33,771 bases of DNA from a virus. How positions within the stretch are numbered: position 1 is the stretch's first letter; each line of letters begins with the position of its first letter. Below the pieces are notes generated by a model that saw only the letters and a program-made list of their open reading frames with translations, was not told the DNA's origin and ran no database searches. Shown in pieces: positions 12,937-33,771 of this stretch. A program made the position numbers and the translations under genes. The stretch covers positions 1-33,771 of IMG/VR virus record IMGVR_UViG_3300010392_000711, one strand, 5' to 3'.

Positions 12937-13191
12937 TTGTTTAACCGAATCGTCGAACGTTTGATGGGCCAGGCCGCCGAGGGTCAACGCAAAATGGTTT
13001 ACGGTACTTTGGCGTTGGTTCTGGCGTGGGTTAATCTAATGTGGGGACCGGTGCCGAATAACCTGGCGTCGGCCGATTTCGTGGATCTCAAGGCATCGGC
13101 CGCGCGATTGGTCTGGTATGTGGTGGGTGTGGTGATTACCGGCAATGTTCTCGAATGGGGCGCCAGGAAATTCGGCAAGACGGATAAATAA
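12937..13191 (+). CDS. Holin-like two-TM protein
   Basis: The protein is 84 aa and begins at TTG 12937, seven bases after a strong GGAGG (12925-12929); no in-frame ATG or GTG has a comparable site. Two membrane segments are visible: about residues 20-38 (MVYGTLALVLAWVNLMWG) and about 55-73 (LVWYVVGVVITGNVLEW). A short basic tail (RKFGKTDK) ends it. Size, topology and position right after the endolysin fit a class II holin that permeabilises the inner membrane. The stop overlaps the next ATG (TAATG). Confidence 0.65.
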   Translation: MFNRIVERLMGQAAEGQRKMVYGTLALVLAWVNLMWGPVPNNLASADFVDLKASAARLVWYVVGVVITGNVLEWGARKFGKTDK

Positions 13192-14573
13192 TGCGACCGC
13201 ATTGCCCATATTGCCGGTCACAGGAAACCGGTAGACACCAAACACGCACCAAAAAAGACGGCGCCATCGTAGTGCGATATAGGTGCCGAGATTGCCGCCG
13301 GACGTTTCCATGGGCAGAGCCGGCGGGATACGATGCGGCGTTATACGATGGGCCAGAAACCTACCCAACAGAACCATCGATGCAGGAAGACGGAAATATC
13401 GCGCATGTGGCGATTCCGCGGGTTGGAAATCCCCCAACGCTAGAATCGCTATTCCGTAAATTCGAAATCGATTCAGATGATTGGCGTGTTCTCTCATATA
13501 AGATAAACGAATGGCACCAGCATTCCGCGAAATACGGTTTGATCCCGTTGTATCAGGGGAAAGCTACCCTATTACGGCGGGATCCGGTCGTATGCGAATG
13601 GCCGGCGGTCCGGCCGGTATACCTCCGCCCGAATCCCCCCCTACGGGCACCGGTTGCCGCCGGCCAGATGAAACGCGCCGTGGTTGTTGCAGATGGACAA
13701 ATAGGATTCCACCGATCGTTCGACGACTATAAAGTGCGTACGTTACACGATCGGCGTGCATTCGCTTGTGCCACGGCGGCAATCACGGCGTTGCAACCGG
13801 ATCAATTGGTGATTTTGGGCGATATGCTAGATTTGCCAGATTGGAGCGATCATTTCGTCCAATCTCCGGAATTCGCGTTTACCAGTCAAATGTCAATCAA
13901 TTGGTTCGCCGCGTGGTTGCGCCACGTCCGGCCGTATTGCGGCAAAGTGGTCTATGTTGAGGGGAATCACGAGGCACGTCTAGTGCGGTGCCTAATGACC
14001 AACACCGCCACGGCGTACAAGTTGAAACCGGCCAACATGCCGGCCGCGGCGCCGCTATTGTCCATCCGGTCTATGTTGGGGTTAGATGCGTTGGGAATCG
14101 AATACGTGGGAGATTATCCCAAGGGTGAATATTGGATTAATGACAATCTGTTGATGATCCACGGCAAAAAGGTCGGCGCCAAGTCCGGTCAAACGGCAAT
14201 GAAAATGTTGGATTCGCCACGGACGTCGATCATTCAGGGGCACGCACATCGCCAGGAATCCGCCCATGTAACCACGCATTCGCACAACAAGACGGTTACA
14301 TACGGCGCGTACGCGTTGGGGACATTGGCGCGGTTGGACGGCATCGTTCCGAGCCAAAACGGTCGGGAAAACTGGCAACAAGGGATCGGCGTGGTTGACT
14401 ATACGGACGATCTCTATCAAGTGTATCCGCTCAATATCTACGGTGGCCGAATGGTCATGTTCGGCCGGCAATACGAGGCCGATGTAACCAACGATCCGTT
14501 GAGCGATTGCGAGGTTCGCGAACTGTTGGCCGACGCGTCGAATTTGGTCGATGCCACGGCGCCGGCGGCATAG
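13191..14573 (+). CDS. Zinc-ribbon calcineurin-like metallophosphoesterase
   Basis: The protein is 460 aa. Residues 5-35 are a zinc ribbon (C5, C8, C32, C35) of the kind seen at the N-terminus of transposases (CPYC...YRCRDC). A linker with LFRKFEIDSDDWRVLSYKINEW follows. From about residue 160 there is a calcineurin-like phosphoesterase: VVVADGQIGFH (motif I, Gln in the usual His position), ILGDMLDL, VEGNHEAR, LMIHGK and IQGHAHR supply the metal ligands. Such enzymes cleave phosphodiesters in nucleic acids or nucleotides. The gene lies inside the lysis region, between holin-like and spanin-like genes, so it may be an accessory (moron) gene or a late DNA-processing enzyme. Confidence 0.8.
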   Translation: MRPHCPYCRSQETGRHQTRTKKDGAIVVRYRCRDCRRTFPWAEPAGYDAALYDGPETYPTEPSMQEDGNIAHVAIPRVGNPPTLESLFRKFEIDSDDWRVLSYKINEWHQHSAKYGLIPLYQGKATLLRRDPVVCEWPAVRPVYLRPNPPLRAPVAAGQMKRAVVVADGQIGFHRSFDDYKVRTLHDRRAFACATAAITALQPDQLVILGDMLDLPDWSDHFVQSPEFAFTSQMSINWFAAWLRHVRPYCGKVVYVEGNHEARLVRCLMTNTATAYKLKPANMPAAAPLLSIRSMLGLDALGIEYVGDYPKGEYWINDNLLMIHGKKVGAKSGQTAMKMLDSPRTSIIQGHAHRQESAHVTTHSHNKTVTYGAYALGTLARLDGIVPSQNGRENWQQGIGVVDYTDDLYQVYPLNIYGGRMVMFGRQYEADVTNDPLSDCEVRELLADASNLVDATAPAA

Positions 14574-15264: not shown

Positions 15265-15735
15265 TTATGCGATCCTTTTTTTCTTTTTTACTACACGCAA
15301 AATAGGTTCCCATCCAGGCCGGTAAAGCATATATCCCCACCGGAGCCGGGTTATGCCTGGCGGTTTTGGCGGTCCTGTTGGCGTCGTCGGCGCCGGCGGC
15401 GGCGGCGTTGGTGTTGGCGCGTCGGTATCGTCCGCCAGTACCCATGTTAACCGACCGGGATAATGTCGGTGTCCGGCCATGATTGCCGTTGCCTCGAATT
15501 CCGCGGCGATCCGCAATAGTGTCCATTTCACACCGCCACGGCGCCGCGGTCGCGCGACAACCGGCGGCGATTGTCTACCCATAAACCGGCCGGTGATATT
15601 GCCATATCGTTCGCCAAAACAGCGGATTTTACGGCATACCTCCGGCGACGGTGTATAGTCGCAGGTTAGTGCGGATGTTTCGATGTTATCTATTAGTTCC
15701 AATAATGCCTTATTGATTGTTTCCTTATTGGGCAT
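15265..15735 (-). CDS. Proline-rich protein downstream of integrase, unknown
   Basis: The protein is 156 aa from the ATG at 15735 (MPNKETINKALLELID), which overlaps the integrase 3' end by 11 bases, so it is probably cotranscribed with it. The N-terminal half is helical; the centre is a flexible Pro/Thr linker (TPTPPPPAPTTPTGPPKPPG); the C-terminus is basic (VVKKKKRIA). I do not recognise a family. A role in integration or lysogeny is only suggested by the operon. A longer in-frame start (15792) lies well inside the integrase gene and is less likely. Confidence 0.55.
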   Translation of the reverse strand: MPNKETINKALLELIDNIETSALTCDYTPSPEVCRKIRCFGERYGNITGRFMGRQSPPVVARPRRRGGVKWTLLRIAAEFEATAIMAGHRHYPGRLTWVLADDTDAPTPTPPPPAPTTPTGPPKPPGITRLRWGYMLYRPGWEPILRVVKKKKRIA

Positions 15736-17122
15736 TGTCGTCCGCTCCAGGGGGAGTGTGGGCCAGCGTAAAATAACCACACCCATATTCACGCATTTTG
15801 TTGGCCGCGGTGTCTAGTGCGTGACGCATTGGATCCATATCCACGATGGTATAAATCTTTCGCGTCGTTTCTAGGTTGCGATGGGCCAATGTTCGACTCG
15901 CAATCGTAAGGCTAATACCCTCATTAGCCTGAATCGAACAAATGGTACGCCGCATATCGTGGATTCTCAATTTGCGCGGTCCGTCGTTCGCTATGCCGGC
16001 ACGCGTCAAAATCCAATCCCATGCGCGTTTATATTCGACAATGTGGCCGCATTTGCTCCGTGACGGGAACATATAGCGTGGCGTTTCGCCGCGGCGCGCG
16101 TCGATTTCCCCCAAAACCGACGTCCACATTTGTCTAAAACGTTCCGCGTCGCCGGCGTCGCCGGTTGTTTCGAAACGTGATTTGGCCTGTTGGGATTTAT
16201 CCCATTTAGCCACCATATCCCATCCAATCATCCGACAAACGCGTTTAGACAACAATTCTAGCGCGATCGTGGACAGGGGAACAATTTCGGGTTCGCCGGA
16301 TTTTGTATCCGGTATTGACCATGATCCATCCGTGAAAGAAACGGCGTCGATTTCCATCGATTTGGTGTTGCCGCTCCGCATGGGAATAAAAACAAATGCC
16401 AAGATCAATTCGCGCATACAATCGTGGGGATATGCGGCGATTGCGGCAAAAAGGTCGGGAAATTCGCCAGGTTCGACGCGCCGGATCCGTCCGGCGATCG
16501 CTTTTTTCTTGATGCCGGCCGCCGGGTTGGGACCGCCGACCATTCCCCATTCGGCGGCGCGGGCAAACATAGACCGAGCTTGCGCCAAAACCTTGTTTGC
16601 CGTGGGCGCGTGGCCGGCATTTACGAGTTTCGCAAATAGGTGGGACACATCCGCCGGCGTAATCTCGAGGTCCGGCCAGATGGTTCGGTTGCGCCATATG
16701 GCGAGATGGTTTTTGTATTGCGACCAATCGGATCGCCACGTCTTTTTATGAACGCGTGAGTGTTGTTCTAAATAGATGCGAAAAAATTTACTCCAGGTGA
16801 TCGCGTGTTTTTGCCTGGCGCGCGCCGCGGCCAATTCGTCGGCGGGGTTGGTTCCCTCGTTGACCATGGTATTGTAGGCTTGCGCGCGCCGGCGCGCCTG
16901 GTCAATCGTCATATCCGGAATATCGCCGTCTTGCCATATGCCTAGATGCAACCGGCCGGTGTCAAATGCCGCCACGCCGCGGCGAAAGAAAAACCGTTTG
17001 GATCCGGAGGGATAGACAGCAATACCGAGGCCGGTAACTTTGGTATCGGCGCGATAATATCGTTTGGCCGCCGGTCGCAATGCCTCAAGTGCGCGTTTAG
17101 TAAAGGCGATTTTATTCGCCAT
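15725..17122 (-). CDS. int: Tyrosine recombinase integrase, P4 type
   Basis: The protein is 465 aa from the ATG at 17122, which has GGAG upstream. The N-terminus (FTKRALEALRPAAKRYYRADT...GLGIAVYPSGSKRFFFR) is the DUF4102-type arm-binding domain, followed by a core-binding helical domain. The catalytic domain shows the expected residues: Arg in FIPMRSGNTKSM, Lys in PDTKSG, HxxR in RIHDMRRT, His in LAHRN and Tyr in RKIYTIVD. It integrates and excises the phage at a tRNA gene. An open frame continues upstream to 17410, but that part is a translation through attP, including the tRNA half, and is not protein-like. The attP core lies 161-205 bp upstream of the start. Confidence 0.93.
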   Translation of the reverse strand: MANKIAFTKRALEALRPAAKRYYRADTKVTGLGIAVYPSGSKRFFFRRGVAAFDTGRLHLGIWQDGDIPDMTIDQARRRAQAYNTMVNEGTNPADELAAARARQKHAITWSKFFRIYLEQHSRVHKKTWRSDWSQYKNHLAIWRNRTIWPDLEITPADVSHLFAKLVNAGHAPTANKVLAQARSMFARAAEWGMVGGPNPAAGIKKKAIAGRIRRVEPGEFPDLFAAIAAYPHDCMRELILAFVFIPMRSGNTKSMEIDAVSFTDGSWSIPDTKSGEPEIVPLSTIALELLSKRVCRMIGWDMVAKWDKSQQAKSRFETTGDAGDAERFRQMWTSVLGEIDARRGETPRYMFPSRSKCGHIVEYKRAWDWILTRAGIANDGPRKLRIHDMRRTICSIQANEGISLTIASRTLAHRNLETTRKIYTIVDMDPMRHALDTAANKMREYGCGYFTLAHTPPGADDNAQ

Positions 17123-17168
17123 GCCATCTCCAAAAATCCCCCGTGCCATTTTGGTGCCATACGACGCG

Positions 17169-17187
17169 GCGTATGATGGCGTATCTT
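17169..17187 (+). repeat. Direct repeat copy 1 (GCGTATGATGGCGTAT)
   Basis: GCGTATGATGGCGTATCTT closely matches copies at 17253-17270 and 18041-18057 in the same orientation (shared core TRTGATGGYGTA). This copy lies 47 bp upstream of the integrase start, on the promoter-proximal side. Such repeats near attP are typical of integrase arm-type or excisionase sites, or repressor operators. Confidence 0.6.
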
Positions 17188-17252
17188 TGGGTTGGTAGCG
17201 GTGTGCAAAATACAACGAATCGGGACGTAAAACAAGAAAAAAGAGTGCGTTG

Positions 17253-17270
17253 GCGTATGATGGTGTATAT
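17253..17270 (+). repeat. Direct repeat copy 2 (GCGTATGATGGTGTAT)
   Basis: GCGTATGATGGTGTATAT differs from copy 1 in the first 16 bases only by C to T at one position. It lies 12 bp from the tRNA-derived attP core (17283). The close spacing to the core suggests an integrase or excisionase binding site; alternatively it is an operator shared with the early promoter copy. Confidence 0.6.
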
Positions 17271-17282
17271 CGTACTCTTTCT

Positions 17283-17327
17283 CTCGTAATGAGCAGGTCT
17301 GCGGTTCGAGTCCGCACACCAGCTCCA
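17283..17327 (+). other. attP core: 3' half of tRNA-Thr(CGT)
   Basis: The segment reads as a tRNA from the anticodon loop to CCA: loop CTCGTAA (anticodon CGT, Thr), TGAGC, variable AGGTC, T-stem TGCGG/CCGCA closing a TTCGAGT loop, acceptor strand CACCAGC, discriminator T and CCA (325-327). The sequence 5' of the loop (TTTCT) cannot pair with TGAGC, so the 5' half of a tRNA is absent. Phages integrating into tRNA genes carry exactly this 3' portion to restore the gene after integration. The integrase on the minus strand next to it confirms the role. It predicts attB in a host tRNA-Thr gene with acceptor GCTGGTG/CACCAGC. Confidence 0.9.
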
Positions 17328-17460: not shown

Positions 17461-17979
17461 TTAGCCAATTTTATCCTCGTTTAATTTGGTTGAGGCGAGG
17501 ATTTCGGCAATCTGGCGGTTGGCCTCGTCGCGCGATTTTTCCAATGCGCGGATGGCGCGTTCCTCTGCGACGCGGGTAATTGCCGCCGCGTGGTCGGATC
17601 CAATGAAAAAATAATGCGTGATTTCGTGGAATCGCAAAAACGCTAATTCATAGTGTGAGTCAAGCCGAGAAATGAGCCCAATAAACGGAAGCGACATTTT
17701 AACAGGATGGTTGATATACATCGCCACATTGCCGCGGTCCATACCGAGCGATTTAGCAAGGGCACGTTTATTGGGATAGTCGGCACGAATAAGAGTTGCG
17801 AGATATTCGCGAAAACACAAAGAGTGTTCGCTAATTAATGCGTCCGCGATGTTTCGTTGTGCCGGTGTTAGGGATACGTATCCAATCACGCGCAATTCCT
17901 TGAGGCGCGAAATTTTATCATCCGTAAACCCATATTGATTATGATTCAATGCGTACATGATATACCCATAGTACGCCAT
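17461..17979 (-). CDS. Repressor-like HTH protein
   Basis: The protein is about 172 aa if started at ATG 17979; TTG 18009 and ATG 17958 are alternatives with equally weak ribosome-binding sites. A helix-turn-helix is visible in NKRALAKSLGMDRGNVAMYI, in the middle of the protein. The C-terminal region is a charged helix (ALEKSRDEANRQIAEILAST) that may oligomerise. The gene is divergent from the early operon and shares a control region with it, as lysogeny repressors do. No LexA/CI-type protease domain is seen, so induction would need another mechanism. Repressor role is inferred from position and HTH. Confidence 0.6.
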   Translation of the reverse strand: MAYYGYIMYALNHNQYGFTDDKISRLKELRVIGYVSLTPAQRNIADALISEHSLCFREYLATLIRADYPNKRALAKSLGMDRGNVAMYINHPVKMSLPFIGLISRLDSHYELAFLRFHEITHYFFIGSDHAAAITRVAEERAIRALEKSRDEANRQIAEILASTKLNEDKIG

Positions 17980-18033
17980 AGCCCCACTAACCGCAAGGCG
18001 AATATCCAAATGTCGGAAAATGCAATTTAGGTG

Positions 18034-18062
18034 TTGACCGGCATGTGATGGTGTAGTAGCTT
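18034..18062 (+). promoter_or_regulatory. Candidate early promoter
   Basis: TTGACC (18034-18039) is five of six matches to a sigma-70 -35 box; 17 bp downstream lies TAGCTT (18057-18062), a weak -10. A direct-repeat copy (18041-18057) fills the spacer, the right place for a repressor to block the polymerase. Strength of the -10 is low, so the call is tentative. Confidence 0.4.
18041..18057 (+). repeat. Direct repeat copy 3 (GCATGTGATGGTGTAGT)
   Basis: GCATGTGATGGTGTAGT matches copies 1 and 2 near attP through the core TRTGATGGTGTA, in the same orientation and about 780-870 bp away. It sits between the candidate -35 and -10 of the early operon. Confidence 0.55.
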
Positions 18063-18119
18063 GTACGCCATACCGGTCACATAGTGCTACCGGGGCAACA
18101 CAGGGTACACGGAGGAATC

Positions 18120-18395
18120 ATGCATCTATTGACACCTAAAGAAGCGGCGGAAATGTTGGGCCGCAGTACGCGAACTTTGGAAAAATGGCGCCGGACGGAT
18201 CCGGCGCGGTTGCCGTACATCGCGGATCGTTCCGCGGGTGGCCGGTTGACTATCCGATATGAGCTGGAAACGATCCATGCCTACGTGGATGCGCGACGCA
18301 TCGGGGGAACCATCGGCGCGGTGTCAGTGACGGGAACACCGGCCGCCCACGCCACGGATGGCCAACAGGGGGGGGAGGTACAGCGCCACACATGA
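18120..18395 (+). CDS. MerR/excisionase-type HTH protein (Xis or Cro-like)
   Basis: The protein is 91 aa from ATG 18120, with GGAGGA upstream. The first 60 residues are a winged-helix of the excisionase/MerR type: LLTPKEAAEMLGRSTRTLEKWRRT, then RLPYIADRSAGGRLTIRYELETIHAYV. It is the first gene of the early operon, divergent from the repressor-like gene, so it may act as excisionase, as Cro-like antirepressor, or both. The C-terminal 30 residues are low-complexity and probably flexible. The remaining 82 bp to the next gene hold an inverted repeat. Confidence 0.75.
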   Translation: MHLLTPKEAAEMLGRSTRTLEKWRRTDPARLPYIADRSAGGRLTIRYELETIHAYVDARRIGGTIGAVSVTGTPAAHATDGQQGGEVQRHT

Positions 18396-20452: not shown

Positions 20453-21373
20453 ATGCGTGATTATGGGAAATTGGCGACGCGGTTTTGGTCGGACCGCCGG
20501 GTAATAGGTCTATCCGACCATGCCAAACTCGTCTTTATCTATCTATTGGCCGGCGCCGAAACGAATTGTATAGGGTGTTTCCGCGTTACGACATTGCATC
20601 TCGCCGCAAGTGAGATTTGTGATCCGGAAGCGGCCAAATGCGCCATCGATGATCTCGTTGGCGTGGGGTTGATCCAATACGACGACGATGCCAAGGTCGT
20701 ATTATTGCCGCATTTCTTAAAATACAATCCGATTTGCAACGGATCGTCGGGGAAGGCGGCAATAAAGGCGGTTTTGGCGGTCCCAGATTCGCATTTATTG
20801 GATACGATAATTCCGCAAGTCGTTGAATTACTGGATGGTAACATATGGACCGATTCGTTGCCGGACGGGTGGCGACACAAGTGTCTACACCGGTGCAAAC
20901 ACAAGTCCGGTCTTCCTATCCTATCCTATCCAGATCAAGATCAAGATCCAGAGGGGGGAATAGATACCGGTGTACGTAAAGGTACACAAGGCGCAAACGC
21001 GTCGGCCGAATCCGGATCCCCCCCCGAATTGCCTACCGCAAAACAAACCAAAACCATCACGGAAATGGCGATAGAACGCGGCGTATCACTCGCCGGAATC
21101 ACGCATGGTTTAGGTATCCAACGGATCACCGCGGGGGACGTGACGGCAGTTATGGACGCCATACGTGCGAATCCGCGGCCGGATCCGGAGGCGTTGGCCA
21201 CCGAGGAACGGAACGTTGCGTTGCGACTATTAAAGGCCGAACTGGAAAAAATCGTTGGTAGGACGGGCCTGGCGTCGGCTTCTGATTGGATCGGCGGCCA
21301 GGATCCGGTATATCGCTTTGGCCTGTGGGATAAGTTGAACGATATGGTTGGCCAGCACGGAGGTACGGCATGA
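20453..21373 (+). CDS. Phage replication initiator / replisome organizer-like protein
   Basis: The protein is 306 aa from ATG 20453 (ACGGAGG upstream). The N-terminal 110 residues are a winged-helix-like domain: KLATRFWSDRRVIGLSDHAK, FIYLLAG, GCFRVTTLHLAASEI and VVLLPHFLKYNP match the N-terminus of phage replisome organizers that bind the origin. A linker of Asp/Gln/Pro follows (about 160-200), then a helical C-terminal domain that may recruit the host helicase. It is the only clear replication gene in the window, so the phage must use host helicase and polymerase. The origin was not identified, but often lies inside such genes. Confidence 0.7.
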   Translation: MRDYGKLATRFWSDRRVIGLSDHAKLVFIYLLAGAETNCIGCFRVTTLHLAASEICDPEAAKCAIDDLVGVGLIQYDDDAKVVLLPHFLKYNPICNGSSGKAAIKAVLAVPDSHLLDTIIPQVVELLDGNIWTDSLPDGWRHKCLHRCKHKSGLPILSYPDQDQDPEGGIDTGVRKGTQGANASAESGSPPELPTAKQTKTITEMAIERGVSLAGITHGLGIQRITAGDVTAVMDAIRANPRPDPEALATEERNVALRLLKAELEKIVGRTGLASASDWIGGQDPVYRFGLWDKLNDMVGQHGGTA

Positions 21374-21916: not shown

Positions 21917-22504
21917 ATGAGCCACACAGGCCACGCCAACCGCGGCAAAGGGTTAGAAAACCTCGTTTTGCAAGCTTGCCAGGTATATGCAAAACGCGGA
22001 TGGGGCAAAATCCAGCGTATCGAAACGCCGGTTTTTCAGGGGAGGCGTGGCCAGGGGGACGGGGACAAATGGACGCGGGGGCGATCGACAGTTGATTTTG
22101 TCGGTGTCTATCAGGGGCGTGGCGTGGCGTTCGACGCAAAGCAGACCAAGATACCGCGGTTCGAATTGGCGCGCATACAACCGCACCAGCGGGCGTATCT
22201 GGCGGACTTTGCCGCCGGCGGCGGTTGCGCGTTCGTTTTGATCGAATTCGTTGGTGTGCGTGAATTCTACGCGGCAACCATCGCGTGGATGGACGAAACC
22301 GCGTCGGCGATGGGCCGGAAGTCTATCCCGTTGGGAACATTCCGATCGGTGGCAAAACTAGGTATCGGCGTAATGGCAATTCCAGAGGGTCTATGCGGCA
22401 TTGGTTGCCATTTTGGACTAGCGGTCGAACCGCATTTGGCTACCGGCCAGTTGGACGCGCCACGCCGCCGCCGGCCGAAATTTGTCAACAGGGGCAACGC
22501 ATGA
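21917..22504 (+). CDS. RecU-like Holliday junction resolvase
   Basis: The protein is 195 aa. The core of a RecU-type PD-(D/E)xK nuclease is visible: ANRGKGLEN (E14), STVDFVGVYQGRGVAFDAKQ (D60, D73, K75), HQRAYL (H90, Q91) and GGGCAFVLIEF. RecU resolves four-way junctions; in phages it processes replicative branches before packaging. It is known mainly from Firmicutes and their phages and from diverse prophages. It is coupled to the next gene by an ATGA overlap. The C-terminal part (about 145-195) is less conserved and ends basic. Confidence 0.8.
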   Translation: MSHTGHANRGKGLENLVLQACQVYAKRGWGKIQRIETPVFQGRRGQGDGDKWTRGRSTVDFVGVYQGRGVAFDAKQTKIPRFELARIQPHQRAYLADFAAGGGCAFVLIEFVGVREFYAATIAWMDETASAMGRKSIPLGTFRSVAKLGIGVMAIPEGLCGIGCHFGLAVEPHLATGQLDAPRRRRPKFVNRGNA

Positions 22505-22707
22505 ATCCCACCGAATGGGCCGACCACATTTTTAACACCGCGAAAGAACGGGCGCAATTGCGGCGCGCCGCGCGCGAGGGTCGATTAGCAACCGCCGATG
22601 GATTCCAATTCGGGATCGATACGCCAACCCATAAATGCGGGGTTTGTGGTCTACGGCAACCGACGCGCCACGCCGCCGAATTTTGTTGCACGGAGGACGA
22701 TAATTGA
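22501..22707 (+). CDS. Small zinc-knuckle protein
   Basis: The protein is 68 aa. The N-terminus is helical (EWADHIFNTAKERAQLRRAAREG); the C-terminus carries CGVCGLRQPTRHAAEFCC, a likely zinc site. It overlaps the RecU-like stop (ATGA) and the sigma-factor TTG start (TTGA). Its immediate position before the sigma gene raises the possibility of a regulatory partner (anti-sigma or adaptor), but this is a guess. Confidence 0.6.
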   Translation: MNPTEWADHIFNTAKERAQLRRAAREGRLATADGFQFGIDTPTHKCGVCGLRQPTRHAAEFCCTEDDN

Positions 22708-23543
22708 GGGATCTACTTACCATTTACAAGGGTGAAATGGGAAAATATTCCCTTATCACCGCGGCGCGCGAATTGGAGTTGGCCGACCGGATCGCGGGCG
22801 GGGATCTCGAGGCGCGCGACGAATTGGTTACGGCGAACCTGCGATTTGTGTTGGTCGTGGCGGCATTGTACCGCGGATATGGGGTCGAATTCGACGATCT
22901 CGTTGCGGAGGGCAATTATGGGCTAATTGTTGCCGCGGAGAAATTCCGGCGCGAACCTGGCGTGCGGTTTTTGTCATATGCCAGATGGTGGATAATCGAA
23001 CGGATCCAACGTGCGATATCCTATCATTCGCGGGTTGTATCCACGCCGGCGAATTCCGCGCGATACTTAAAGACGGTGCGCGCCGCCGAATGGTCCGCCG
23101 GCGGCCGTAGCGATACCGCACCGGACGAAAGCGAGGTAGTTGCCGCTACCGGGTTACGGCCAAGTGAAGTCCGCGCGTGCGTGGTGTTGCGTGCCAATAG
23201 CCATAGTTTAGATAAACCGCTACCGTTCCAGGGAAACGCCGGCGGCGAAAAAAAGACATATTTGGATATGATGAGATCGGACGCCGAACCGCCGGACGCC
23301 GGCGCCATCCGGTCGGATATCGGCGCGAAATTGGCCAAGGCAATGGCATACCTCCGGCCGCGCGACGCCGCGGCCATAATCCATTATTACGGATTGGACG
23401 AATCACGGGTTGGCGAGTCGTATCACCGCGTCGGCCGCCGGTTGGGGTTGTCGCCGGAGGGAACGCGGCAATCGATCCGTCGCGGGATCCGGCGGTTGAA
23501 GCGAACAAGCTTAATCCGCGAAACCCAACGCATCGCGGGATAG
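22704..23543 (+). CDS. Phage-encoded sigma-70 family RNA polymerase sigma factor
   Basis: The protein is 279 aa, starting at TTG 22704 seven bases after GGAGG and overlapping the upstream stop. All core regions are visible: region 1.2-like (YSLITAARELELADRIAGGD), region 2.1-2.2 (NLRFVLVVAALYRGYGVEF, DDLVAEGNYGLIVAAEKF, residues 45-81), region 2.3-2.4 (FLSYARWWIIERIQRAI, 89-105), a region 3-like part, and region 4 (YLRPRDAAAIIHYYGLDE, then RLGLSPEGTRQSIRRGIRRL). This directs host RNA polymerase to specific promoters. It is much closer to group 1/2 bacterial sigmas than T4 gp55. It sits mid-early operon, so a late-gene switch is likely. Confidence 0.92.
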   Translation: MRDLLTIYKGEMGKYSLITAARELELADRIAGGDLEARDELVTANLRFVLVVAALYRGYGVEFDDLVAEGNYGLIVAAEKFRREPGVRFLSYARWWIIERIQRAISYHSRVVSTPANSARYLKTVRAAEWSAGGRSDTAPDESEVVAATGLRPSEVRACVVLRANSHSLDKPLPFQGNAGGEKKTYLDMMRSDAEPPDAGAIRSDIGAKLAKAMAYLRPRDAAAIIHYYGLDESRVGESYHRVGRRLGLSPEGTRQSIRRGIRRLKRTSLIRETQRIAG

Positions 23544-26212: not shown

Positions 26213-26264
26213 CCGAACGATCTAATTCGTACCAGACGAATCTCCTACCATAGTCGCCATACCG

Positions 26265-26303
26265 GGCCAGGGGGAACGGAATCCCCGAGGGAGCAACCTG
26301 GCC
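26265..26303. repeat. Inverted repeat GGCCAGG/CCTGGCC with inner hairpin
   Basis: GGCCAGG (26265-26271) and CCTGGCC (26297-26303) are exact inverted repeats; inside them GGGGA (26271-26275) pairs with TCCCC (26282-26286) around ACGGAA, leaving GAGGGAGCAA as a single-stranded arm. The nested stems look like a folded RNA or a terminase-binding site. Confidence 0.65.
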
Positions 26304-26432
26304 AGATCACCACGGCGGCAAAATGCGCTTACTCTCACAAAACATTACACCGCAAAGGGTTGGGAATATCAAAAGGTACTTCCTAAGGGTATGCCTTGAG
26401 GGTAAGCGCGATCCCGAAAACGTTCTAGTTTC

Positions 26433-26473
26433 AGGCCGCCCTAGTGTTCCACCACAACGAGGCGGAAATGCCT
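26433..26473 (+). promoter_or_regulatory. Hairpin covering the terS ribosome-binding site
   Basis: CCGCC (26436-26440) pairs with GGCGG (26461-26465) and AGG (26433-26435) with CCT (26471-26473), leaving a 20-nt apical loop. The 3' strand includes the GAGGCGG Shine-Dalgarno for the terS ATG at 26475, so the fold would block initiation until opened. The pairing is seen in the sequence; regulation is inferred. Confidence 0.5.
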
Positions 26474-26474
26474 A

Positions 26475-26987
26475 ATGGCAATGACCGCCGAAATGTGGTC
26501 GATCTCCGGACTTGCGGTCGAATTGGATATGGACCGGCGGACGGTTGCAAAGCGCCTCGAGGGCGTCGAACCTGCCGGCCGCCGCGGTCGCGCAAAACTA
26601 TTTCGGATGGCGGACGCGGCGCGCGCGTGTTTCGCGCCGACCGGGAGCGGCGGCGACGATCTGGATTTGACACAGGAATCCGCGCGGTTGAAAAAAGCGC
26701 AAGCCGACAAAACGGAACTCGAGGTGGAAATATTCAAGGGCAATTTACTCGAATCCGAAGACGTCGCCGAGGTGTGGGCCGATCGAGTTTTGTCGGCCAG
26801 GTCGCTATTACTAACCATTCCGCCGCGGTTGGCTATGCAAATGAAAGCTATGGCCGATGAGCCATTGCCGGCAATCGAAGACACAATTGCCGAATCCATC
26901 CACGCCGCGTTGTGCGGACTCGCCGGCGGGGATCCTGGCGAAAGTGGTGGCGGCGGAATGGGCGCCGCCGCCAAGGTTAAAGGTTAG
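26475..26987 (+). CDS. terS: Terminase small subunit (Nu1-like)
   Basis: The protein is 170 aa from ATG 26475. The N-terminal winged-helix (MWSISGLAVELDMDRRTVAKRLEGV, then RAKLFRMADAARA) matches Nu1-type small terminase subunits that bind the cos region. A helical middle (ARLKKAQADKTELEVEIFKG) mediates assembly, and the Gly-rich C-terminus (about 145-165) leads into the end. It overlaps the large subunit start by more than 40 bases, as in other GpA-type phages. Its mRNA leader may mask its own ribosome-binding site. Confidence 0.85.
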   Translation: MAMTAEMWSISGLAVELDMDRRTVAKRLEGVEPAGRRGRAKLFRMADAARACFAPTGSGGDDLDLTQESARLKKAQADKTELEVEIFKGNLLESEDVAEVWADRVLSARSLLLTIPPRLAMQMKAMADEPLPAIEDTIAESIHAALCGLAGGDPGESGGGGMGAAAKVKG

Positions 26988-28797
26988 CGAGTGGGCCGAA
27001 CAAAGGCGGATGTTGAGCCGGGAAAGTGCGGATGCCGCCGGACCATATAGGGTTTCCGCGGCGCCGTATCAACGCGAAATGCAGGATGCATTTAACGATC
27101 CGAACGTGAGAGAACTTGTATTTATGACGTCGGGGCAAATAGGTAAAACAACCATGGTGGAAAATATCATGGGCTATTGCATGGATCTGGCGCCGGCGCC
27201 CATGTTGGGGGTCTTGCCGACGTTGAATCTCGCCGACACATTTTCAAAGGATCGCCTGGCGCCGATGATTAGGGATACGCCGGCGTTGCGGGCCAAGGTT
27301 AAAGATGCCAAATCGCGGGATAGCTCCAATACACTGAAACACAAAAAGTTTCCTGGCGGCCAAATCACATTAATCGGCGGAAATGCGCCGTCCGATATGG
27401 CGTCGCGTCCAATAAAATATGCCTTTATCGACGAGCGGGATAGGTTGGCCGAGGCCGCCGGCAAAGAAGGCGATCCGTATTTCTTGATTATTCAGCGTCA
27501 AGAAAATTACTACGGCGCCAAGATGGTGCAGGATTCCACGCCAACAATCAAAGACGCATCGCCAATCGAATCGGCATTTCTCGAATCCGACCAACGATAT
27601 TTCCACATACCGTGCAAATCGTGCGGCGGATATCAGAAATTGGTTTGGGCTAATGTTACGTGGGAAGTCAAGAAACCGCAGGTTCCCGAAGATGTTTGGT
27701 ATACATGCGCCCATTGTGGGGATAAGTGGAGCGATGGCGATATTGTCGTTGGGTTGAAAACCGGAAATTGGATTGCCGAAGCGCCGTTTAACGGCATCGC
27801 CGGTTTCCACATCAATGCCATCTATTCGCCGTGGGCGCCGATGCAACGGATGGTGTCGAAATTCCTACGAGCAAAAAAAGACACCGAATCACTCAAGGCG
27901 TGGGTTAACACGCAGTTGGGCGAAACGTGGGAAGAACCTGGCGATGTGGTCGAACCATCGACGTTGTTTGCGCGCCGGGAACAATACGCCGCCGAGATGC
28001 CGGCCGGCGCGTTGGTCGCCGTGGCCGGCATCGACGTCCAAGGTGATCGCCTCGAGGTCGGCGTTTACGGGTACGGGATTGGCGAGGAATCTTGGGACAT
28101 AACATATCGTGTTCTATGGGGCGATCCAGATAAAGACGATGTGTGGCAATTACTAGACGACGTTCTAATACGAGGACGGTTCAAACATGAAAGCGGCGCG
28201 ACTATTGGGATTGCCGCGTCTTGTATTGACAGTGGCGGACACCATACACATCGCGTCTATGAATACTGCCGGACGCGGCAGAGCAAACGAATCTTTGCAA
28301 TCAAGGGTATGGCGGGATTCGGACGTCCGATGGTGTCGGCGCCCAGCAGCAAACGCCATGGCCGCAATCGCCGTCCGGTTAAATTATTCACGTTGGGCGT
28401 GGACGAAATAAAGTCGCACGTCCATTCGCGGTTAGGCGTCGAAACGCCGGGGCCAGGTTACGCACATTTTCCCTTAAATCACGAATACGACGAGGAACAT
28501 TTTTCGCAATTGGCGGCCGAAAAAGTGGTCACGCGGATGGTTAAGGGTACGCCAAAGCGGGAATGGATCCGGATCCGACCACGCAACGAAGCATTGGACA
28601 ACCGCGGGTATGGATATGCCGCGTTGTGTTTGCTTAATCCGGATTTCGAAGCATTGGCCGAACGGTTGCGACCGGCGTCGGCCGCCGACGATTCGGTGTC
28701 GGCCACCGACGATGCGGCGCCGGATCGCGCGCCGGCGCGCCGGCGTGCGCGAAAGTCCGGCAATTATCTCAATAAATACCGGAGGCGGCAACGGTGA
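26944..28797 (+). CDS. terL: Terminase large subunit (GpA family)
   Basis: The protein is about 617 aa if it starts at GTG 26944 or 26947; an ATG at 26857 in the same frame would add 29 residues that do not look conserved. It contains VSEWAEQRRMLSRESA, Walker A SGQIGKTT (63-70), Walker B YAFIDERD (159-166), two CxxC pairs (PCKSCGG, TCAHCGD), and nuclease motifs GIDVQGDRLEVG and CIDSGGHHTHRVYEYC, with a C-terminal RNEALDNRGYGYAALC. This ATP-driven motor cuts concatemers and fills heads. The family match to lambda GpA is strong and points to cos-type packaging. The stop overlaps the next GTG. Confidence 0.93.
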   Translation: MVAAEWAPPPRLKVSEWAEQRRMLSRESADAAGPYRVSAAPYQREMQDAFNDPNVRELVFMTSGQIGKTTMVENIMGYCMDLAPAPMLGVLPTLNLADTFSKDRLAPMIRDTPALRAKVKDAKSRDSSNTLKHKKFPGGQITLIGGNAPSDMASRPIKYAFIDERDRLAEAAGKEGDPYFLIIQRQENYYGAKMVQDSTPTIKDASPIESAFLESDQRYFHIPCKSCGGYQKLVWANVTWEVKKPQVPEDVWYTCAHCGDKWSDGDIVVGLKTGNWIAEAPFNGIAGFHINAIYSPWAPMQRMVSKFLRAKKDTESLKAWVNTQLGETWEEPGDVVEPSTLFARREQYAAEMPAGALVAVAGIDVQGDRLEVGVYGYGIGEESWDITYRVLWGDPDKDDVWQLLDDVLIRGRFKHESGATIGIAASCIDSGGHHTHRVYEYCRTRQSKRIFAIKGMAGFGRPMVSAPSSKRHGRNRRPVKLFTLGVDEIKSHVHSRLGVETPGPGYAHFPLNHEYDEEHFSQLAAEKVVTRMVKGTPKREWIRIRPRNEALDNRGYGYAALCLLNPDFEALAERLRPASAADDSVSATDDAAPDRAPARRRARKSGNYLNKYRRRQR

Positions 28798-32816: not shown

Positions 32817-32845
32817 CATTTAGTGGTGTGATGGATAGTTAAAAT

Positions 32846-33368: not shown

Positions 33369-33771
33369 ATGCTAGTACGAATCACAAGGCATACAATCGG
33401 CGACGGTAGGCCGGTGTTTGCCGGCGAGATCCATGATCTCAATTGCGCCGAAATATTGGTTGCGTTGGGGAAAGCCGAGCCAGTATCGGCCGCCGAAGCG
33501 ATCCCGTCGTTGATCGAACAATTCGACGACGACGACGACGACGATACCGAACGAATGTTGGATGAGGTTTTCGGTCCGGCCGACGATGCCGGCGATGCCG
33601 ACGATGCCGGCGATGCCGACGATGCCGGCGATGCCGACGATGCCGGCGATGCCGACGATGCCGGCGATGCCGGCGATGCCGACGATGCCGGCGATGCCGA
33701 CGATGCCGGCGATGCCGACGATGCCGGCGATAACCTCGAGGCCGCCGCTATTGATTCGATCCAATGGGTGA
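33369..33771 (+). CDS. N-terminal part of acidic-repeat/AT-hook protein (gene crosses contig join)
   Basis: ATG 33369 has ACGGAGGTAAT upstream. The first 55 residues are a compact alpha/beta region (MLVRITRHTIGDGRPVFAGE), then a poly-Asp stretch, then from residue 71 an 18-bp-repeat-encoded region of Ala, Asp and Gly. The frame stays open to 33771 and continues at base 94 onward to the stop at 192, giving 166 aa. The mixture of acidic repeats and a basic AT-hook tail at the C-terminus is unusual. Repeat number may be misassembled. Location suggests a head-completion or head-tail role. Confidence 0.85.
   Translation, partial: MLVRITRHTIGDGRPVFAGEIHDLNCAEILVALGKAEPVSAAEAIPSLIEQFDDDDDDDTERMLDEVFGPADDAGDADDAGDADDAGDADDAGDADDAGDAGDADDAGDADDAGDADDAGDNLEAAAIDSIQWV
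33579..33731 (+). repeat. 18-bp in-frame tandem repeat (Ala-Asp-Asp-Ala-Gly-Asp)
   Basis: The unit GCCGACGATGCCGGCGAT occurs in tandem about 8.5 times over 153 bp: five full units, one half unit (GCCGGCGAT), and three more full units. Units are essentially identical at DNA level, including synonymous positions, which implies recent expansion or gene conversion. The three rightmost units also form bases 1-54. Because the contig breaks here, true copy number is uncertain. Confidence 0.9.
33678..33771. repeat. Right copy of 94-bp terminal direct repeat
   Basis: Identical to bases 1-94. It contains the last three tandem units and the unique continuation into the AT-hook gene. Removing one copy gives a circular map of about 33,677 bp with an uninterrupted reading frame. 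Confidence 0.95.

Follow-up and report, generated by a model that had tools for sequence, protein, structure and literature searches.

The window, by which we mean the whole 33,771-nt stretch of viral DNA analyzed here, encodes a genuine sigma-70 family protein of 279 aa at 22704..23543 (+ strand). The explanation we favor, with a rough probability of 0.55, is that this is an early sigma factor that was captured from a bacterium of Bacteroidota/Krumholzibacteriota type, has since diverged, and would steer host RNA polymerase toward non-canonical promoters, mainly those of the phage.

The gene begins with a TTG codon preceded by GGAGG seven bases upstream, and the start codon overlaps the stop codon of the preceding gene. 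In Pfam searches, Sigma70_r2 (8.4e-14; 51.6 bits, cut-off 24) and Sigma70_r1_2 (2.4e-6; 27.8 bits, cut-off 22) scored above their cut-offs, Sigma70_r4 (1.6e-4; 21.6 bits) was under its cut-off of 24.1, and Sigma70_r3 (0.06) was well under. Region 4 was aligned in every full-length model and shows the predicted helices of a helix-turn-helix. PHROG 351 ('RNA polymerase sigma factor') matches the protein from end to end (1.2e-37), placing it in that family, and the NCBIfam RpoS and RpoD models also align along its entire length (down to 3.7e-40), with scores that miss the equivalog cut-offs (138 bits vs 379 for RpoS and 118 vs 572 for RpoD). Its best match among solved structures (PDB) is E. coli sigma-S (1.9e-30, residues 3-267 of the phage protein). 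An AlphaFold model has a mean pLDDT of 86.6 with confident individual domains, and a PDB fold search with this model returned sigma-S and sigma-A at the top, with a global TM of only 0.39, a value that, together with the pTM of 0.45, is to be read as the mutual packing of the domains not being fixed by the model. The original prediction of a sigma-70 protein with regions 2 and 4, for which a Pfam profile search had been proposed as a check, is therefore borne out by the region 2 profile, the full-length profiles and the fold, which together give a protein with regions 1.2, 2, 3 and 4 and without region 1.1. Identification as MzaA of the MZA defence system was rejected, as that match spans region 2 only, reaches 102 bits against an equivalog cut-off of 800, and no Mza neighbors were seen.

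In group 2 sigma factors, the promoter-reading residues resemble those of the primary sigma. The phage protein shares the layout of that group, with region 1.2 present, region 1.1 absent, and a length of 279 aa against a range of about 280–340 aa. Since it carries Q437E, R436I, R451S, R584P and R586G (E. coli sigma-70 numbering), 'group 2-like layout' is, as judged from sequence, a way of filing the protein and does not make it a true group 2 factor.

These replacements were seen in an alignment with 120 other sigmas, both cellular and viral, where E99, I98, S113, P251 and G253 of the phage sigma correspond to Q437, R436, R451, R584 and R586 of E. coli sigma-70. Glutamine occupies position 437 in 119 of the 120 compared proteins and R or K occupies position 451 in the same number; the isoleucine at 436 is unique among them, a proline at 584 recurs in one, and the replacement of R586 is by glycine. 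Residues N383, F427, Y430, W433 and W434, which we take to form the pockets that accommodate the -11 A and the -7 T once these bases have flipped out, are all retained, as are most of the core-binding residues of region 2. The protein keeps 23 of the 25 columns conserved at 90%, and Q437 is one of the two exceptions, so that the change at this position does not reflect general decay. In E. coli sigma-70, Q437 and T440 read position -12 and substitutions there alter this reading, position -31 is read by R584, and the promoter duplex is bound less well when R436 or R451 is mutated (PMC2613000). Because the readers of -12, of the promoter duplex and of the -35 element depart from those of nearly all 120 sigmas, the phage factor is unlikely to read ordinary promoters, and an altered promoter specificity is predicted in place of ordinary housekeeping recognition. 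The earlier description of the factor as 'housekeeping-like' fits its fold and fails for the promoter-reading residues (Q437E, R436I, R451S and R584P). A codon-degenerate search pattern with E at 437 retrieved one real sigma from 2.9 million viral contigs (a further match, L239, proved to be a chance one) and was absent from all 80 Krumholzibacteriota genomes; with Q at 437, the same pattern gave at least 120 matches in the viral contigs.

The best matches to the phage sigma are RpoS-like paralogues of Krumholzibacteriota (34–37% identity), and short primary-type sigmas of Bacteroidota (RpoD-type of Hymenobacter) are 34.6% identical; the sigmas of other phages score below these cellular proteins. 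In a maximum likelihood tree, a 100/96 branch separates the window sigma, together with sigmas of Bacteroidota, Gemmatimonadota and Krumholzibacteriota, from cyanophage sigmas, RpoS and long RpoD proteins. Phylogeny had been one of the checks suggested at the outset; it indicates the side of the tree, and any finer position is unsafe owing to the great length of the branch leading to the window sigma (2.7 changes per column). An initial tree paired the protein with another long-branch sigma (L087); this pairing was discarded and the tree rebuilt without L087. A clade with the cyanosiphovirus sigmas was rejected (AU p 0.0028), and a clade with the Krumholzibacteriota sigmas was not (AU p 0.32, to be read with the 2.7-long branch in mind). 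From the grouping with Bacteroidota/Krumholzibacteriota types and the rejection of a cyanophage clade, the capture was probably separate from that of the cyanophage sigmas. No close relatives of the window sigma were found in the viral contigs searched, searches by capsid and by Holliday resolvase returned the same phage or none, and no sigma was found in 33 records with relatives of the large terminase subunit (TerL), many of which are fragments. Krumholzibacteriota genomes (G034–G043) themselves encode about three to seven full-length sigmas each, near group 2 type, and this expansion is worth a separate study.

The ends of the window share a 94-bp direct repeat, of which about 40 bp is non-repetitive, which makes the record a closed circle. 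At the record junction (33580–33730 and 1–54) lies an 18-bp tandem repeat encoding an acidic ADDAGD repeat, the copy number of which may be misassembled. The late genes follow a lambdoid order (TerS/TerL, portal, capsid-protease fusion, neck, tape measure and endolysin), and a metallophosphoesterase-like protein is encoded within the late (tail/lysis) block at 13191–14573. The late block is followed by a convergent integrase gene (15725..17122, - strand; phrog_1, 2e-40; probably starting at M97 in the longest ORF) and then by a divergent early operon that leads back to terS. The operon (+ strand) opens with an excisionase-like HTH_17 protein (18084..18395, profile match) and continues with an HNH protein, a DnaD-like helicase loader or replication protein (20453..21373, profile match), a Holliday junction resolvase-like protein (21917..22504; phrog_843, 1.1e-32), the sigma and small genes. 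As originally described, the sigma gene sits in the middle of a co-directional early operon; spacing there is tight, and early and late genes run in the same direction. The ORF at 17461..18009 (- strand) is a candidate repressor by its position and divergent orientation; it had no family match and one distant match, to a Krumholzibacteriota prophage contig (4.6e-4). A candidate early promoter, TTGACC-17-TAGCTT, lies at 18034..18062 (+ strand), below the threshold of the consensus scan, and its spacer is one copy of a 16-bp repeat, GGCRTRTGATGGYGTA. Three perfect copies of this repeat are present (17168–17183, 17252–17267 and 18040–18055), all intergenic and in one orientation, the other two lying between the integrase start and the attP core; they are probably operators or integrase arm sites. 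An Rfam scan of the window gave nothing credible. Of the 'temperate siphophage' named in the original prediction, the first half is supported by the integrase and attP, and the second is consistent with the presence of a tape measure gene and the failure to find a sheath gene in the closed genome.

The attP core (17283..17327, + strand) consists of the 45-bp 3' end of a tRNA-Thr(CGT) gene. The tRNA-Glu(ctc) called by ARAGORN at 17249–17327 is a miscall of this fragment, which adjoins the integrase. Among 84,980 species genomes, the 45 bp were matched exactly in 11 contigs, and all 10 genomes with an exact match (10/10) are among the 80 Krumholzibacteriota genomes; in the contigs checked, the core forms the end of the tRNA-Thr(CGT) gene. 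Relatives of the phage TerL occur in 11 of the 80 genomes, and in one Krumholzibacteriota contig (L370) the genes for TerS, TerL, portal, capsid and tape measure follow one another as they do in the window. The host is thus probably a member of Krumholzibacteriota, an uncultured phylum, an assignment that is well supported, though indirectly, by the exact attP core and the TerL relatives. A literature search found no study of Krumholzibacteriota phages, and attP provides a link between a closed phage genome and this phylum. In one of the genomes (G038), the tRNA-Thr 3' end occurs twice at contig ends (L173, 95–139; L174, 3–47), possibly reflecting an integrated element or merely contig overlap.

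Under the favored explanation, host sigma-A would transcribe the early operon after infection or induction, and the phage sigma would then compete for host core RNA polymerase. The new holoenzyme would be directed to promoters that deviate at -12 and -31 from the consensus, as its readers of those two positions are replaced. Its likeliest targets would be phage promoters of later genes, from which transcription would continue across the rejoined cos into terS, and we infer redirection to late genes as the likeliest role. A group 2 sigma in the early region of a phage has a precedent in P-SS2 (PMC2784084). Several points weigh against this explanation. No common promoter motif could be demonstrated, and late expression may not need the phage sigma, since none was found in relatives with similar packaging genes (many of these records being fragments). 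Read-through from the early promoter could also suffice, given that early and late genes are co-directional, and with so long a branch the replaced DNA-reading residues could mean that promoter recognition has been lost.

The position of the gene bears on a second explanation, in which the phage sigma works chiefly at promoters of the host, whether in a lysogen or in the course of infection, and alters host physiology. Bacillus phage sigmas change sporulation and biofilm phenotypes (PMC2716549; PMC9429907), and the three to seven or so such sigmas in each Krumholzibacteriota genome would offer a host network to tap. The Bacillus factors, however, are sigF/sigG-like, whereas the window sigma lacks residues retained by every host paralogue compared, and its gene lies inside the replication/early operon, away from the integrase and repressor, next to which many lysogeny genes are found. 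We consider this unlikely. The replaced residues also tell against the proposal that the factor reads near-normal promoters and boosts phage transcription when sigma-A is scarce, as host group 2 sigmas do. The group 2 layout, the best matches to RpoS and group 2 proteins, and the suggestion that the P-SS2 group 2 sigma reads canonical promoters (PMC2784084) would all fit, but Q437, R436, R451 and R584, each implicated in reading or binding canonical promoters, are all replaced, and we regard such a role as distinctly unlikely. A pattern of largely retained core-binding residues in region 2 and changed promoter-reading ones is also what would be expected if the protein sequestered core RNA polymerase or displaced sigma-A, shutting off the host without promoters of its own; a complete region 4 and intact DNA-melting pockets would be needless in a pure sequestering protein, making this slightly less probable again. 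That the gene is a decaying passenger of no present use, as its very long branch and the failure to find any relative carrying it might suggest, is very improbable for a gene whose 279-aa frame is intact and preceded by a ribosome-binding site, which is tightly spaced within its operon and which keeps 23 of 25 highly conserved positions.

In the ORF list, a non-coding block of 262 bp (26213..26474, + strand) separates the early genes from terS (26475..26987, + strand; profile match), the first late gene, which is followed by terL (26857..28797, + strand; profile match, with relatives found). This is indeed the only long gap between the two blocks, and it had been proposed as the natural target of the sigma. 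It proved to contain the cos site, a feature common to relatives in which no sigma was found, which argues against that proposal and accounts for the block being non-coding. The cos end, GGTAAGCGCGATCCCGAAAACGTTCTAG, lies at 26401..26428 (+ strand), and the contigs of relatives begin at its first base: both L003, a 68%-identical relative, and L002 start at the equivalent of 26401 (GGTAAGCGCG...). In more than 20 TerL relatives (43–48% identity), GGTAACGCGCGACC is found at the same place, and many of these contigs start at its first base. As relatives' contigs start at one conserved base, 26401 is taken to be the genome end, and a conserved sequence next to terS coincides with genome ends, as in cos-type packaging. 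A cos end of the form GGTAA(C/G)GCGCGACC... is common to a large lambdoid TerL group (cos-end records: 26401 of the window, L005, L007, L015, L018, L021–L023, L032, L035, L037, L051, L054–L056 and L063), with contigs starting at it or a few bases away, so that metagenome contig ends reveal the packaging site.

A promoter motif shared upstream of terS, which the original prediction had led us to look for, could not be shown. The element TAGTGTTCCACCACAACGAG (26442..26461, + strand), 5' of terS, is conserved at 19–20 of 20 positions in L002, L003 and a Krumholzibacteriota prophage (terminase 41–45% identical), and it cannot be tied to the sigma because the searched records of relatives, many of them fragments, yielded no sigma of this kind. 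A consensus scan found no sigma-70-type promoter above threshold in 26213–26474, and fewer promoter-like sites than in shuffled sequences. A gapped-motif search with six gaps gave the pair CATAGT-17-GGGAAC (p about 0.03), and CATAGT alone had a p of 0.008; the latter was chosen post hoc, and both results are treated as leads. CATAGT at 26249..26254 (+ strand), to the left of cos, is a weak candidate -10 element that is insignificant after allowing for the choice of motif; the same hexamer recurs at 18080 and a variant, GATAGT, at 32834, and each of the three lies in a gap ahead of + strand genes or where these begin. A promoter to the left of cos (26213–26400), with its transcript crossing the joined cos into terS, is possible, and the C that CATAGT has at -12 would suit an altered -12 reader, which is no more than a lead. 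The G-rich pair GCGGGGG..GTGGGT (15238 and 17434) was not placed as a promoter.

It is known from classical genetics that replacing Q437, T440 or R584 in E. coli sigma-70, one residue at a time, alters or relaxes promoter reading. A bolder version of the favored explanation is that the phage acquired a complete sigma of primary type from the lineage of its host and rewrote the -12 and -35 readers, which would take host RNA polymerase to private phage promoters with a non-T at -12 and possibly a CATAGT-type -10. We advance this tentatively, at less than even odds; if true, nature would have produced an equivalent of the Q437/R584 specificity mutants made in the laboratory. A complete sigma from nature in which several readers have been replaced together would offer a test of how promoter specificity evolves, and it may serve as an orthogonal transcription part.

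The supposition that phages seldom carry such a sigma did not hold up. Relatives of the window sigma are encoded by 577 among the 600 pattern matches listed from viral contigs, PHROG 351 is a phage family of such proteins, and phage sigmas of this class have been known in early regions since P-SS2 (PMC2784084), followed by S-CBS1, KBS-S-2A and S-LBS1. What is new is a probably separate capture, in a phage linked to Krumholzibacteriota, together with the replaced promoter readers. The cyanosiphovirus factors (P-SS2 ORF113, S-CBS1 gp27, KBS-S-2A gp11 and that of S-LBS1) likewise have full regions 1.2–4 in about 280–310 aa and are encoded among the early/replication genes of siphoviruses, several of which have an integrase. 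Those of S-CBS1 and KBS-S-2A are about 27–28% identical to the window sigma and, unlike it, they keep Q437, R436, R451 and R584; the hosts are cyanobacterial. Bacteroidota and Krumholzibacteriota have short group 1/2 sigmas that share its length and layout and are the closest sequences found, but they are cellular genes, and all those compared keep the readers changed in the window sigma; E. coli RpoS is about 31% identical to it. The only other sigma found with E437 is that of the gut phage MT835492 (IMGVR_UViG_3300001528_000174), which also has P584, is 26–27% identical to the window sigma and is nearest to Bacteroidota sigmas; the two may have acquired these residues either independently or by descent. 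The gut-phage gene (L087, 1941–2765; L237, 9944–10783) adjoins a DNA polymerase gene in a phage of more than 120 kb. Factors of the T4 gp55 and SPO1 types are also phage proteins that redirect host RNA polymerase, a role we infer for the window sigma, and they lack its full region 1.2–4 layout.
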